Part shown: positions 1 through 5,596 of the stretch, piece after piece | How the letters are laid out: each line of letters opens with the position of its first letter | How positions within the stretch are numbered: position 1 is the stretch's first letter | NCBI GenBank assembly: GCA_003173865.1 | Contig: PJMF01000025.1 | Location: 1 to 49,623 of the forward strand | Direction of reading: 5' to 3' | Source: Minisyncoccota bacterium | GTDB lineage: Bacteria; Patescibacteriota; Microgenomatia; UBA1400; PJMF01 | Length of the DNA: 49,623 bases | Program-made: the position numbers and the translations under genes | Notes under the pieces: model-generated | What the model saw: the letters and a program-made list of their open reading frames with translations, nothing else | Told to the model about the DNA's origin: nothing | The model's database searches: none

Positions 1-1232
1 TGAGGTTTTAACATATTGAGTGCTTCTTTCGCTACTGCGACATCACTCCAGGGATACTCAGTGGTGCCGTAACACATGCTTTTTTCGTGGCCTTTGCCGA
101 AAATACCGATGACGTCACCTGGCTGGGCAAGTTTGTGCACTGCAAAGAAAATAGCTTCGCGACGATCGGCAATCGAGAGTACTTTCGCGTGATACGGAGC
201 GATGTTTTGTTTCATTTGGCGAATAATTCCCCATACGTTTTCAGTGCGGGGATCTTCAGCAGTAAAAATAGCGAGGTCAGCGACTTCCGCGCCCGTTCTT
301 CCCATGGAAACACGTTTTGCAATATCGCGTAAACCAGCGCAACCGAAGGCAGCGATCAAACGACCTTTACGTTTTTGCGCACGCATATCCTTTCGCAAAT
401 TTGTCAGTGCTTGCAGCAGACCGTTTGCTGTGTGTGCAAAATCAACGATCACTTTAATGTTGTTTACCTCACCGACTTCTTCCATTCGGCCCGGTACTCC
501 GGAAAATTGTTTCGTTGCCGTAATAAAATCTTTTTCTTTAATACTCATGATTTGTGAAATTGTGTAGACTAGACGCGCATTCATGCGGTTATACAGTTGT
601 GGAAAACGTTGATTGATCGTAGTCTCAACACTCTTGGGAAGTGCGTCAGTGGTAGAGTACGTATGAATTTTAGTCTTACTTTCTCTTAATTCTTTTTTCA
701 ATTTAGAAAACGAAAGTTCATTGTCTGCATTGATGACTGCGGTTTGGGCGCGCTTCGCGAGACTTGCTTTTGCTTCTAAATAGAGATCGTAGGTTGCATG
801 ATAATCCAAGTGCTCGTTAGTAATGTTGGTAATACCCACTAGGTTGGGTGTAATTCCCCACAAACGTTGCTGGTAAATACCATGAGAAGTGGCCTCAAGC
901 ACTAAGTACTCAAACCCTTCGTCCACCATCTTCCGCATAAACTTTTGTAGTTGCAATGGGTCTGGAGTCGTCACATGAAAGCCGGTATCAATCTCTTCTT
1001 CACCAATATAGGCGGCAACGGTGGTCAGGAGGGCCACTTTAAGTCCTGCTTGCTTGAGGACATGATAAAGGAGCGTCGACGAAGTCGTTTTGCCGTCTGT
1101 TCCCGTAATGCTAATGATTTTGAGCTTCTTGGCGGGAAAACCGTACTTGATCTGGGCCACTAGGCCTTTTAAAAGACCAGTCTTAACCAGGTGATACGGC
1201 TTTTTCGCGTGGTAAACAAGCTCTTTCCACAT
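1..1232 (-). CDS. murE: UDP-N-acetylmuramyl-tripeptide synthetase / Mur ligase (MurE-like), 3' part cut by window edge
   Basis: Not in the ORF track because it has no stop inside the window. Minus-strand translation from ATG at 1232: MWKELVYHAKKPYHLVKTGLLKGL...ISITGTDGKTTSSTLLYHVLKQAG...ITNITNEHLDYHATYDLYLEAK...HTANGLLQAL...AAFGCAGLRD...FTAEDPRTE...GKGHEKSM. Contains the Mur ligase P-loop (GTDGKTT) and later Mur motifs. Confidence 0.93.
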   Translation of the reverse strand, partial: MWKELVYHAKKPYHLVKTGLLKGLVAQIKYGFPAKKLKIISITGTDGKTTSSTLLYHVLKQAGLKVALLTTVAAYIGEEEIDTGFHVTTPDPLQLQKFMRKMVDEGFEYLVLEATSHGIYQQRLWGITPNLVGITNITNEHLDYHATYDLYLEAKASLAKRAQTAVINADNELSFSKLKKELRESKTKIHTYSTTDALPKSVETTINQRFPQLYNRMNARLVYTISQIMSIKEKDFITATKQFSGVPGRMEEVGEVNNIKVIVDFAHTANGLLQALTNLRKDMRAQKRKGRLIAAFGCAGLRDIAKRVSMGRTGAEVADLAIFTAEDPRTENVWGIIRQMKQNIAPYHAKVLSIADRREAIFFAVHKLAQPGDVIGIFGKGHEKSMCYGTTEYPWSDVAVAKEALNMLKP

Positions 1233-1238
1233 GGGGCT

Positions 1239-1244
1239 ATTATA
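1239..1244 (-). promoter_or_regulatory. -10 box TATAAT, 6 nt upstream of murE ATG (candidate leaderless start)
   Basis: Minus strand reads TATAAT-AGCCCC-ATG; the spacing would put +1 at or next to the A of ATG. Confidence 0.55.
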
Positions 1245-1313
1245 GCGTAGTTCAGGCAGCGGAAGGGGGTAATCTGATGGTTTGAGGAGCTTATTTAGGA
1301 GAGCCTATAATTA

Positions 1314-1342
1314 TTGATTTTCGGCCCAATTTGGGGTAAAAT
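1314..1342 (+). promoter_or_regulatory. Sigma70-like promoter TTGATT-17 nt-TAAAAT
   Basis: TTGATT at 1314-1319, 17-nt spacer, TAAAAT at 1337-1342; predicted start about 1349, upstream of the small plus-strand ORF. Confidence 0.5.
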
Positions 1343-1364
1343 AAGGCATAAGAAAAGGTTTTTT

Positions 1365-1379
1365 GCCGCGCGGCTTTTT
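1365..1379 (+). terminator. Terminator/attenuator-like palindrome GCCGCGCGGC followed by TTTTT
   Basis: gccgcgcggcttttt; short GC palindrome with U tract in the presumed leader. Confidence 0.35.
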
Positions 1380-1398
1380 GGTTTCCCGCGTTTTAAGG

Positions 1399-1421
1399 CC
1401 AGAAATACTTTCTGGTTCTTT
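1399..1421 (+). terminator. Second terminator/attenuator-like hairpin CCAGAAA-TAC-TTTCTGG + TTCTTT
   Basis: Perfect 7-bp stem followed by a U-rich tract, upstream of the 1518-1814 ORF. Confidence 0.4.
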
Positions 1422-1429
1422 AACATCCT

Positions 1430-1499
1430 TACAGAGAGTACTAGTGCGCATGGTTAAACCCTTCACGGGTAGATATCGTGCGTGCTTAAACTTTCTGTA
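1430..1499 (+). promoter_or_regulatory. Structured 5' leader element (three stacked helices) just upstream of the small membrane-protein ORF
   Basis: UACAGAGAGU(1430-1439)/ACUUUCUGUA(1490-1499), 10 bp; inner GCGCAU(1446-1451)/GUGCGU(1478-1483); apical ACCC(1458-1461)/GGGU(1467-1470) with UUCAC loop. RBS-like AAAGGA at about 1505-1510, then ATG 1518. Confidence 0.45.
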
Positions 1500-1517
1500 G
1501 AAAAAAAGGAAAAAACC

Positions 1518-1814
1518 ATGTTGTTCCAACCAAGTTTCAGTCGTAGTAGCCGAATCTGGCGTTCATTCAGGGAGATTGCAATTCCTTGTTTGAGGGTTGT
1601 CATCCTTTGGATGACGGGGATTGCAATAATTCTATTACACATTTGGGTATTTGAAATATCGTGGAATATCTTCGCGGTAAATATTTTAGGCACAAAGAGC
1701 ATTGATCCGTCCATGGCCTTCTTTGGGTTGTTGCTCATGTCCGTAATTGTTCCGCGGCGTTACAATCTCAGATTGTTTTTAGACATTATTGAACGTCCGG
1801 GACGTCCAAAATAA
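1518..1814 (+). CDS. Small hypothetical membrane protein (about 98 aa)
   Basis: ORF from ATG 1518 (AAAGGAAAAAACCATG) MLFQPSFSRSSRIW...; two hydrophobic stretches (CLRVVILWMTGIAIILLHIWVF; SMAFFGLLLMSVIV); followed by a strong terminator. Confidence 0.55.
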   Translation: MLFQPSFSRSSRIWRSFREIAIPCLRVVILWMTGIAIILLHIWVFEISWNIFAVNILGTKSIDPSMAFFGLLLMSVIVPRRYNLRLFLDIIERPGRPK

Positions 1815-1862
1815 TCGTTATTTCCTTTTTTCTCGCTTGCAATTTTTTGCAGCCTACAGACT

Positions 1863-1886
1863 GGACCCCCTCACGGGGGTCCTTTT
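1863..1886 (+). terminator. Intrinsic terminator after the small ORF
   Basis: GGACCCCC-TCAC-GGGGGTCC-TTTT, 8-bp perfect stem. Confidence 0.8.
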
Positions 1887-1975
1887 ACAACTACGTATAA
1901 TTTTTGAGAAAAAATTATTGATTCAGTTATTTCAATTTGATACAATCCCAACAGAGCTGGTAATAATAAACTATG

Positions 1976-2087
1976 TTGTGCCTAGATGTTCCCGAGTGGT
2001 ACACTCAACTTAAGTTTAGGAGCGACACAATTTAGCACCGCCGCTCTAATAAAATAGATCTGGGAAACCAGGTCTTTTTTATTTTTA
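1976..2087 (+). ncRNA. Structured small RNA, copy A of a tandem pair, ending in an intrinsic terminator
   Basis: P1 GUUGUG(1976-1981)/CACAAU(2027-2032); P2 CCUAGA(1982-1987)/UUUAGG(2016-2021); P3 GAGUG(1995-1999)-GUA-CACUC(2003-2007); loops UGUUCCC, AACUUAAG, AGCGA. Terminator AGATCTGG-GAAA-CCAGGTCT-TTTTT at 2057-2081. AATAAT at 1963-1968, 7 nt before the first P1 base. Confidence 0.72.
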
Positions 2088-2149
2088 ACCCTTTAAATCA
2101 TGTCTAAAAAATGATAAATTTAATATTGAAGTATGCAATAATAACTTAT

Positions 2150-2256
2150 GGAGTGCTCTAGTGTTCCTTCGGGGTACCTGAAGCTTGAGCTAGAGAGTTA
2201 CACTTTATAAGACGCTACTTCAATGAAGTGTCTCGCCTTGGCGGGATCTTTTGTTT
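2150..2256 (+). ncRNA. Structured small RNA, copy B of a tandem pair, ending in an intrinsic terminator
   Basis: P1 GGAGUG(2150-2155)/CACUUU(2201-2206); P2 CUCUAG(2156-2161)/CUAGAG(2190-2195); P3 UUCGGG(2168-2173)-GUA-CCUGAA(2177-2182); loops UGUUCC, GCUUGAG, AGUUA. Terminator TCTCGCC-TT-GGCGGGA-TCTTTT at 2231-2252. AATAAT at 2137-2142, 7 nt before the first P1 base. Confidence 0.72.
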
Positions 2257-2290
2257 ATCGAAAACCGTAACAAAAACACATTTGCTTGAA

Positions 2291-4012
2291 CTACCTATCC
2301 CCCGGCACGTTCAATAACATATACAACTTATCTGCAATGTGGTACCACAGCGGCGCCGCCGTTTCGGCCGCCCAAGGAGATTTTTTGGTGTCTTTTAACT
2401 TCACGATCATCACGAACTTGGGATCGTTTGGTGGGGCAAAACCAATAAAACTGGCAATTGTGCGATCTTTATCATAGTGACCAGCCACAGGGACTTGAGC
2501 AGTTCCAGTTTTCGCTGCAGCTAAATGTGTTTTGGAAGCCGTCCAGTGCGACTCACCTTTGTCCGCAGCGTAGACCATCATGCGCGTCACTGTATCAGCA
2601 GTTTCTGCAGAAACCACTCTGCCCTCTTCCACCGGTTGGACCTCCACATCAGTGTGCGTAACTGGATCACTGACGTGTTCAATAATAGTTGGACGCATCA
2701 TAATGCCATGATTTGCAATCGCGCCAACGGCACGAACCATTTGCATACTTGTAGTGACGACACCCTGCCCAAACGAACCAGTTGCTAAATCAATTGGTTT
2801 CCATTCACTATCTTTGCGTAGCGGGGTTCCCGTATCTTCTTGAAGTTCAATATGGGTGGGTTCGCCAATTTTAAAACGGTGTACGTAATCGAGAAACCGA
2901 TCTTTGCCGAGTAAATCAGAAATAAAAATCATGGCGGTGTTATCTGATTTGGCAAGTGCGTCGTTCATCGTGATATTAGGTGTGTACTCATCGTTCCAGG
3001 TTTTAATGGAGTACTCTGCAATTTGACGCGGGCCTGCACACTTCGTGCACGGCGTATCTTCTTTAATGACGCCGGTGTCAATTCCAGCGGCTACCGTCAA
3101 TACTTTAAAGATCGAGCCTGGCTCATAACTATCAGTCAGTGAAGGATTTTTATACGTACTTGGATCGGCAGTTTGAAACTGAGCTTGATCGTAACTGGGC
3201 GAGGCTGCCATGGCTAAGATTTTTCCAGTTTTAGGATCCATCACAATTACTTCACCAGCTGGAGATTGATAATACTCCAGACCTTTGCGCAGCATATCTT
3301 CAACCATGTACTGAATGTCACGGCGAAGGGTTAACGTGACGTTGCGACCGTCTTGTTGTTCAGTAGTTTGGTTGTGATCAAAAAGTAAGCGAAATCCTAA
3401 GCCATCCTTGAGAAAAGTACTTTGTTGGGTGTGACCTTTTAGTTCGCGATCAAGATCTCCTTCGACTCCAAAGTAACCTACATCATTGCCATCTTTGTCT
3501 TTGCCGACAAATCCCGTCACTTGCGCAGCCATCGAAGCTTCTGGATAATCTCTTGTTTCATACTGGTCAAAGCCTAGTCCACGCAGATGAAGACCATCGA
3601 TTTTTTGTTTCGTAGACTCATCAACTTTGTTTCTTAATGCCACCCATTTTAATTTGGGATCACTTAATTTAGATTGAATCTCCGCTGCTGTCGTCGCGAT
3701 TGCATCTGGAGTTACGAGCAATGGCGCGAGCATATTGGCTAGTGCGGCTGGATCAGTTTGAAGTACCCCTGGCTCAGCAAATAAACGAAACACATTTTTA
3801 TTCGTAACTAACGTTGCACCATCACTGGTAAAAATTTTACCTCGATGCGCAGCCACAGAAACACTTTTGGTGTATTGGAGTTGTGCCTGAGCTTGCAAAT
3901 CAGAGCGGTGCAGCACTTGCCAATAAAAAAGTCTTCCTACTAAGCAAAGAAAAAGAAAATCTAAAATAATCAGGACCACTTTCGTGCGTCGATGCTGGCT
4001 CAACGTATGCAT
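2291..4012 (-). CDS. ftsI: Penicillin-binding protein, FtsI/PBP2-type peptidoglycan transpeptidase
   Basis: N-terminal TM; SxxK in YEPGSIFKVL; SDN in KSDNTAMIF; KTG in AAKTGTAQVP; position in dcw cluster. Confidence 0.93.
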   Translation of the reverse strand: MHTLSQHRRTKVVLIILDFLFLCLVGRLFYWQVLHRSDLQAQAQLQYTKSVSVAAHRGKIFTSDGATLVTNKNVFRLFAEPGVLQTDPAALANMLAPLLVTPDAIATTAAEIQSKLSDPKLKWVALRNKVDESTKQKIDGLHLRGLGFDQYETRDYPEASMAAQVTGFVGKDKDGNDVGYFGVEGDLDRELKGHTQQSTFLKDGLGFRLLFDHNQTTEQQDGRNVTLTLRRDIQYMVEDMLRKGLEYYQSPAGEVIVMDPKTGKILAMAASPSYDQAQFQTADPSTYKNPSLTDSYEPGSIFKVLTVAAGIDTGVIKEDTPCTKCAGPRQIAEYSIKTWNDEYTPNITMNDALAKSDNTAMIFISDLLGKDRFLDYVHRFKIGEPTHIELQEDTGTPLRKDSEWKPIDLATGSFGQGVVTTSMQMVRAVGAIANHGIMMRPTIIEHVSDPVTHTDVEVQPVEEGRVVSAETADTVTRMMVYAADKGESHWTASKTHLAAAKTGTAQVPVAGHYDKDRTIASFIGFAPPNDPKFVMIVKLKDTKKSPWAAETAAPLWYHIADKLYMLLNVPGDR

Positions 4013-4013
4013 G

Positions 4014-4301
4014 TTACTGTCTCATGGCAACGGTGGTGGTGTGCGCTACAGGAACTAAGTTGTCTATAGCTACATATCCCTCGTTGAGAGCAGAGGTTGA
4101 GATGAATGCGATAGAATTACTTGCTTCAATTTGTTGGCGCAGCGCTTGCTCTTTATTTAAAGTAGCTTGCTTCTGAGCCTCTAACTGGTGAATTTGCATT
4201 CCGTATGAAACACTCTGGCTTCCTACGAAGATAGTATGAGCAATCATGCCTAACGTCAAGAGTGCTAAAAAGGTGTAGTACATTTTGAACTTTGTTTGCA
4301 T
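4014..4301 (-). CDS. FtsL-like septum protein (single TM plus coiled coil)
   Basis: 95 aa, one N-terminal TM then heptad-like region QLEAQKQATLNKEQALRQQIEA; located between rsmH and ftsI. Confidence 0.65.
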   Translation of the reverse strand: MQTKFKMYYTFLALLTLGMIAHTIFVGSQSVSYGMQIHQLEAQKQATLNKEQALRQQIEASNSIAFISTSALNEGYVAIDNLVPVAHTTTVAMRQ

Positions 4302-4313
4302 GTGACTTATCTC

Positions 4314-5183
4314 TTATTTTTTTTCAAAAATGCGCATCTTCGCGCTTCGTGCTCTTTTATTTGCCGCCAACTCTTCAGCTGATGGCTCGATAATATCTTT
4401 TGTTAAGTGATGTCCTTTATGTTCGAGTTCCCATGTTTTAAACATTTGCTTGACAATGCGATCTTCTCCTTCGTGAAATGCAATAGTTACAATGTGTCCG
4501 CCTGGTTCGAGAAGTTCCAGCGCTTGAGGTAAACCTTGCGCAATGCTGTCTAGTTCACTATTCACTGCAATTCTTAGCGCCTGAAAAACTTTTGTCGCGG
4601 GATTGAGATGAGATCTTTTCTCGTACTTTGCGTTCTCAATAATCCGAACCAGTTGGTCGGTGGTAGTGATCGGAGCTTTCTCCCTGAAGTACACGATCGA
4701 CTTAGCGATTCGTCGTGCTTCGTGTTCGCCGCCGTACTCGATGAAAAGGTCTGCTAGTTGCTTCTCACTCAGGAGAGCGAGAAGGTCTTTTGCTTTCACC
4801 CCTAATCGATTATCCATTCTCATATCGAGCTCAGCTGTACCTTCAAAGCTAAAACCTCTCGATTGGTCTTTGAGCTGATCGGTCGAAGTACCAAAATCAA
4901 AGAGCGCGCCGCTTGGTTTAATGTTTAATGAAGAAACGAAGTGACCAATTTTTTCGAAGTTTTCGCGAAGGAGAATTAATTTTTTTTGAGCAATTTCTTC
5001 TTCGAACTCATTCTCGCCAAACTCGATTGCTTCCTGATCAACATCAAAAGCGACGACGTTGCCGCCTTTCTGCAAAATCATTTCCGTGTGGCCACCTCGG
5101 CCAAATGTACCGTCGATGTACCAGTGTTCTGGTGTAACCTGTAAGGCTTCAACTGCTTCGTGAAGGAGGACGGTGATATGCAT
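4314..5183 (-). CDS. rsmH: 16S rRNA (cytosine(1402)-N4)-methyltransferase RsmH/MraW
   Basis: HITVLLHEAVEAL, DGTFGRGGHTEMIL, FDFGTSTDQLKDQSRGFSF, ATKVFQALRIAVNSEL; follows mraZ. Confidence 0.95.
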   Translation of the reverse strand: MHITVLLHEAVEALQVTPEHWYIDGTFGRGGHTEMILQKGGNVVAFDVDQEAIEFGENEFEEEIAQKKLILLRENFEKIGHFVSSLNIKPSGALFDFGTSTDQLKDQSRGFSFEGTAELDMRMDNRLGVKAKDLLALLSEKQLADLFIEYGGEHEARRIAKSIVYFREKAPITTTDQLVRIIENAKYEKRSHLNPATKVFQALRIAVNSELDSIAQGLPQALELLEPGGHIVTIAFHEGEDRIVKQMFKTWELEHKGHHLTKDIIEPSAEELAANKRARSAKMRIFEKK

Positions 5184-5596
5184 TAATTTTGCTCTGCGAT
5201 TTCTGCAGCGTTTTTTTCAAGTTGATCAATGTATGTGTGATATCTTTCAAGGTCCCAGAGTTCTACCCGCTGGTAGCTTCCTACAATCACGATGTTTTTT
5301 GCGAGCTGGGCAGTTGCTCGCAAATACTCGGGAAGAAGAAGTCTACCAGACTGGTCAAGCTCAACTTCTTGCGCTTCGTTCGTCATCAGACGAATAAAGT
5401 CGCGTTGGGCTTTTTTGGTAAAACTTTGTTGACTCAATTTTTCCATTTCTTGTGCAAATGTTTTGTTAAGGAACAGAAAAAGTCCGCCGTCTAATCCCCT
5501 TGTGATTACCCATTCGTTTCCAGCTTCCCGGAACTTCTTTGGTAAAGAAACGCGTCCTTTTTCTTCAATGGTGTGATAGTATCTGCCTATAAACAT
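5183..5596 (-). CDS. mraZ: Transcriptional regulator MraZ
   Basis: MFIGRYYHTIEEKGRVSLPKKFRE...VITRGLDGGLFLF...; first gene of dcw cluster. Confidence 0.93.
   Translation of the reverse strand: MFIGRYYHTIEEKGRVSLPKKFREAGNEWVITRGLDGGLFLFLNKTFAQEMEKLSQQSFTKKAQRDFIRLMTNEAQEVELDQSGRLLLPEYLRATAQLAKNIVIVGSYQRVELWDLERYHTYIDQLEKNAAEIAEQN

Follow-up and report, generated by a model that had tools for sequence, protein, structure and literature searches.

Within the window, by which we mean the whole stretch of 49,623 nucleotides that was analysed, two short elements, A and B, lie in tandem on the plus strand inside a cluster of cell-wall and division genes (positions 3-5596), all of which are encoded on the minus strand. 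An earlier note, made from the sequence alone, had described both as plus-strand RNAs with defined helices, loop motifs and terminators, and all of these are present in the sequence. The locus raises the question of what kind of RNA A and B are, and what two such RNAs might do at this place. The features of the region are the following:

3-1232, minus strand: Mur-ligase-like gene (by eye)
1482-1814, plus strand: reading frame of 110 aa that precedes RNA A and lacks a Pfam match
1918-1946, plus strand: promoter of RNA A, TTGATT-17-TACAAT, 5 nt before helix P0 (9/12 consensus bases, shuffle p 0.048)
1952-2048, plus strand: RNA A, RF02964 (DUF3800-V), 57.5 bits, model positions 1-96 of 96; orphan
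1962-1968, plus strand: AAUAAUA internal loop of RNA A, between helices P0 and P1 (alignment A1, columns 13-19)
2056-2085, plus strand: intrinsic terminator of RNA A (AGATCTGGgaaaCCAGGTCT and T tract), with an A tract before it
2092-2120, plus strand: weak promoter-like site of RNA B, TTTAAA-17-TAAATT (8/12, shuffle p 0.28)
2127-2222, plus strand: RNA B, RF02964 (DUF3800-V), 77.3 bits, model positions 1-96 of 96; orphan
2137-2143, plus strand: AAUAAUA, conserved internal loop of RNA B (alignment A1)
2230-2257, plus strand: intrinsic terminator of RNA B
2291-4012, minus strand: penicillin-binding protein (FtsI-like) gene, convergent with RNA B; not DUF3800
4314-5183, minus strand: MraW
5183-5596, minus strand: MraZ

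A and B are orphan members of the DUF3800-V RNA family

When the whole window was searched against Rfam 15, elements A and B were the only two matches, both to family RF02964 (DUF3800-V) and both far above its gathering threshold of 37.4 bits. A and B are therefore members of an already catalogued family, reportedly described by Weinberg and co-workers in 2017, and not a new RNA; what is novel is the arrangement, an orphan tandem pair inside a known family. The earlier note had taken them for a small RNA family that it did not recognise and had proposed a comparison with Rfam as a check; that comparison gives a clear match to a known class, and the scores rule out a new family. The proximity to DUF3800 genes that gave the family its name is absent from A and B, for which we found neither a DUF3800 gene in the window nor a detectable remnant of one beside the two RNAs, while it is seen for most other copies and for a third copy from the same genome, C, which lies on another contig (C13) and likewise matches RF02964 over its full length. 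Since this proximity is an association and not part of the definition of the RNA, the membership of A and B stands.

The two neighbours are not each other's closest relatives. A is 80% identical to C and only 56% to B, and shares with C the features of a sub-variant (GGUAAUAA at the start of a loop and GCACCGCC in a 3' strand) that differ from the common, classical form. B belongs to this common form and is 76% identical to a copy from a Magasanikbacteria assembly (G508). The low identity and the different nearest relatives rule out a recent tandem duplication, and the pair rather represents two sub-variants placed side by side.

Structure, covariation and transcription signals

Alignment of 20 homologues (alignment A1) places the start of the RNA about 24 nt upstream of the helix that the earlier note had called P1 and reveals an outer helix, P0 (columns 4-12 with 111-118), which encloses P1, P2 and P3. 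In B, P0 consists of UGAAGUA/UACUUCA and GC/GC around a bulged U, in A of AGAGC/GCUCU. P1 is also longer than in the Rfam model and extends into CUU/AAG in most copies, so that P0 and P1 both reach past the Rfam helices. In the AAUAAUA loop between them, columns 13-17 and 19 are invariant and column 18 is kept in 19 of the 20 homologues.

The helices covary far beyond chance, as the earlier note had supposed from two sequences. RNAalifold on the 20 sequences yielded 31 pairs, 22 of them with double changes. For the 32-pair structure named here, 94.5% of the cells pair, double changes occur in 23 of the 32 pairs (13.7 +/- 2.0 in shuffles) and the covariation score is 0.557, compared with 0.252 for shuffled sequences and at most 0.13 for slid structures; this structure was adjusted after viewing the same sequences, so that the whole-structure counts lean somewhat its way, and the Rfam helices within it were fixed beforehand. 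B keeps 32/32 consensus pairs and every conserved unpaired base, while A, like C, keeps 25/32 of the consensus-column pairs, and A retains all conserved unpaired bases but one. Across the 20 aligned copies, conservation is on average higher at internal unpaired positions than at paired ones, and there is no variable single-stranded stretch that could be used as a guide. In two homologues (L117:4827-4941 and L118:5011-5125), about 19 additional nt are inserted between P3 and P2 and probably fold into a hairpin.

To locate promoters, upstream regions were scored against TTGACA-N16-18-TATAAT. In most copies a promoter lies 4-7 nt before P0, and two homologues, G508 and G510, show all 12 of the 12 consensus bases. 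The promoter of A occupies the same place as these two, and that of C also has 9/12 consensus bases; the site before B scores no better than shuffles (8/12, p 0.28). With its promoter just before P0, A is predicted to start near position 1952. The AATAAT that the earlier note had read as a -10 box, with transcription starting at P1 (position 1976), is the near-invariant loop inside the RNA, and its conservation in 20 homologues together with the promoter further upstream rules this box out. A terminator similar to that of A, with compensated base changes, follows copy C, and at many loci with an adjoining DUF3800 gene the terminator hairpin lies between an A tract and a T tract; such a hairpin, flanked on both sides, could serve both converging transcripts.

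A and B do not lie upstream of a gene on their own strand, as a riboswitch or leader would, but are followed by a convergent gene. Equipped with a terminator each and with a promoter that is clear in A and weak in B, they are autonomous RNAs, and this part of the earlier interpretation, along with the existence of homologues and the covariation, stands, while the new family and the start site with its -10 box had to be given up.

DUF3800-V RNA co-occurs with a clade of DUF3800 proteins

Homologues outside the locus are present across the phylum, though in few genomes. The RNA was found in 14 of 384 genomes of the phylum, three of which carry a divergent sub-type associated with a different DUF3800 clade; none was found in 142 other relatives. 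It occurs in 1-3 copies per genome, and its presence is patchy even within genera. A profile of the DUF3800-V protein gave strong matches in nine of the same 384 genomes, and all nine have the RNA. Taking as the RNA side of the test the 11 genomes with classical or A/C-type RNA, nine genomes have both partners, two the RNA only and none a strong protein match only (Fisher p = 1.2e-16; both the cut between strong and weak proteins and the decision to exclude the divergent RNAs were made once the lists had been seen, and p is 4e-14 when all matches are counted). The profile was built partly from RNA-adjacent proteins and is thus tuned to that clade, which in itself does not make clade members lacking the RNA invisible to it.

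The divergent sub-type, characterised by a UUCCCAUCCAUC stretch and found beside the different DUF3800 clade at three loci (L107, L111 and L112), may deserve a family of its own. Scans were also made with a DNA pattern derived from A and B; the pattern is narrow, and the scans are uninformative on the full range of the family. None of its seven matches in a viral collection was confirmed by the RNA model. A genome collection gave 35 matches, with the RNA in six of the 14 that were run through the model; the other 21 were set aside by title and could hold more members.

Of the 20 aligned copies, 16 face a convergent DUF3800 reading frame at a distance of 9-54 nt (two of these frames are broken and one is divergent), and the usual layout is an RNA convergent with DUF3800 and a terminator between the two. 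This bears on the proposal of the earlier note that A and B are independent trans-acting small RNAs that act on mRNAs and have nothing to do with DUF3800 function. A and B indeed stand alone and carry transcription signals of their own, and two other genomes, G287 and G189, likewise have orphan copies. However, most copies adjoin DUF3800, every surveyed genome with a strong DUF3800-V protein carries the RNA, and the loops are fixed across distant hosts, unlike the seeds of mRNA-pairing RNAs, which adapt to local targets. We therefore consider action on mRNAs improbable.

Orphan RNAs and broken partner genes

The four aligned copies without a DUF3800 neighbour are A, B and those of G189 and G287. 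The DUF3800 gene of G287 carries another RNA, DUF3800-IX, and the DUF3800-V gene of G189, located on another contig, stops after about 95 residues. In two further genomes, G198 and G510, an intact RNA stands beside a damaged DUF3800 gene, so that in all four genomes the RNA is intact where DUF3800 is broken or absent. In G189 the break coincides with a short tandem duplication followed by hairpin-rich sequence (L129:3601-4099), which by eye resembles an IS200/IS605 end. An approximately 80-bp repeat adjoining the G189 orphan locus (L101:5997-6075) occurs many times in G189 and in its congener G246. When G246 was considered as a possible empty site for this orphan, the upstream flank proved not to be homologous.

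The damaged genes in G198, G510 and G189 raise the possibility that A and B are decaying, inactive remnants of RNA-DUF3800 modules whose protein genes were deleted. The weak promoter of B would fit, as would the absence of the RNA from 142 relatives and its patchiness within genera, from which the module appears to come and go. Against this, B retains its complete structure and all conserved unpaired bases, A lacks just one of the latter and has its promoter and terminator, and no trace of DUF3800 is detectable beside either RNA. Given this conservation, any loss would have been recent, or selection persists; decay of both RNAs is a serious contender that we nevertheless judge to be rather doubtful. 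That the RNA outlasts the nuclease gene would suit an RNA that restrains the nuclease, but the same asymmetry may also be expected from decay, as a 660-bp gene is a larger target than a 100-bp RNA.

The scattered orphans and the patchy distribution, taken with an RNase H-like fold of the protein, could also suggest a MITE-like mobile DNA element for which DUF3800 would serve as a transposase in trans. We regard this as very improbable, because the compensatory changes point to selection that maintains pairing in the RNA, the flanks of A and C share nothing evident past the RNA and its terminator, and no genome has more than three copies.

The protein partner is a predicted RNase HII-like nuclease

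The only DUF3800 gene of the genome (PF12686) lies on contig C13, convergent with copy C and 36 nt away from it; the assembly is 95% complete in 32 contigs, and a further DUF3800 gene could be missing from it. C is located downstream of genes that by eye are FtsA-like and FtsZ-like (L007:3496-8328), between the DUF3800 gene and a gene with a weak match to PDC-S04, a candidate defence model; this neighbour has no Pfam match above cut-off.

The C13 protein has 222 aa and was modelled from 13 homologues with a mean pLDDT of 91. In fold the model most resembles archaeal RNase HII and human RNase H2 (E values starting at about 1e-5, TM near 0.5); a sequence search of the PDB returned nothing significant. 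Residues D6, E7, D131 and D178 are invariant among DUF3800-V proteins and presumably correspond to the DEDD set of RNase HII. Judging from the model and these invariant residues, the DUF3800-V protein is predicted to be an RNase HII-like nuclease. Phage records gave no match, and plasmids one partial DUF3800 match at 34% identity. DUF3800 has been described as a nuclease of the RNase H fold that is accessory in Cas12a2-branch, V-A2 and VI-F CRISPR loci, and has been linked to putative ncRNAs (PMC10910872, PMC12669027).

All 13 DUF3800-V proteins match the PADLOC candidate-defence model PDC-M04A, with moderate scores (best 9.8e-11), and the neighbours of RNA-V loci include, among the matches listed, four Fic proteins, restriction-modification genes and other PADLOC candidates, which hints at a possible role of the module in defence.

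A putative RNA-nuclease module with two orphan RNAs

Our preferred reading, to which we assign a probability of roughly 60%, is that A and B are orphan DUF3800-V copies, that the RNA and the predicted nuclease form one putative ribonucleoprotein module used in host conflict, and that A can serve the C13 protein in trans. In such a module, an RNA of about 100 nt and four helices would be transcribed from its own sigma-70-type promoter, convergent to the DUF3800 gene, and end at the terminator. It would work through its fixed structure and not as a variable guide, for which it has no variable single-stranded stretch, and would most likely restrain or license the nuclease; the host conflict might be defence or of a toxin-antitoxin-like kind. 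RNA A, sharing the special features of C, could be recognised and bound by the C13 protein. RNA B is likelier a leftover of a module since lost, either a remnant or a spare antidote, in view of its weak promoter, its different sub-variant and the lack of a cognate protein in the 95%-complete assembly.

With one nuclease gene, one cis RNA and two orphans, one of the same and one of the other sub-variant, this single genome amounts to a natural experiment, which makes recognition in trans and the direction of regulation directly testable for RNAs that had been catalogued without a known function. To this catalogue the survey adds the close convergent placement of RNA and gene, a promoter from which the 5' end follows, reciprocal co-occurrence with the protein and the predicted RNase HII-like fold with its invariant DEDD residues.

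Comparison with known systems

The DUF3800 accessories of type V-A2 and VI-F CRISPR loci belong to the same domain family and share the RNase H fold (PMC10910872, PMC12669027), but no Cas family is among the top 25 neighbour families listed at RNA-V loci.

A second likeness is to TnpB of IS607, an RNase H-fold (RuvC) nuclease whose RAGATH-18-derived RNA was first found computationally (PMC11061315); in both cases a gene for an RNase H-fold nuclease adjoins a structured RNA. The DUF3800-V protein is smaller, at 222 aa, and its RNA has no guide-like variable end segment. Following this parallel, DUF3800 could depend on the RNA as an activating cofactor or scaffold, as TnpB does, and the RNA would then not be an inhibitor. 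RAGATH-18, which also came from structured-RNA searches, proved to be the guide RNA of IS607 TnpB (PMC11061315), and the strict co-occurrence fits a cofactor and an inhibitor equally well. Yet RNA-V has neither a variable tail nor a variable loop, its terminator following close after P0 and its loops being conserved, and it is still found where the nuclease gene is damaged or missing, so that activation appears to us possible but unlikely.

An RNA that restrains the nuclease, one of the two actions considered in our preferred reading, recalls type III toxin-antitoxin systems (ToxIN), with which the module has in common a compact two-gene locus that pairs a putative nuclease with a small structured RNA ending at a terminator of its own. 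In those systems, one operon holds a tandem array of short RNA repeats and, behind a terminator, the toxin gene (PMC5086642), whereas here a single RNA is convergent with the protein gene; and the best fold matches of DUF3800 are RNase HII and H2 and not the endoribonuclease fold of ToxN, CptN and TenpN. On a bolder view, which we offer as speculation, the module would be an RNA-controlled RNase HII-like nuclease in which a convergent, separately transcribed RNA restrains the nuclease, a new RNA-antitoxin layout, and the orphans would be spare antidotes acting in trans, A against the resident module and B against an incoming one of the other sub-variant. Closest of all is the DUF3800-V family itself: A and B differ from its usual loci in being a tandem pair without an adjoining DUF3800 gene, and agree with it in having the same structure and, elsewhere in the genome, the family's usual partner.
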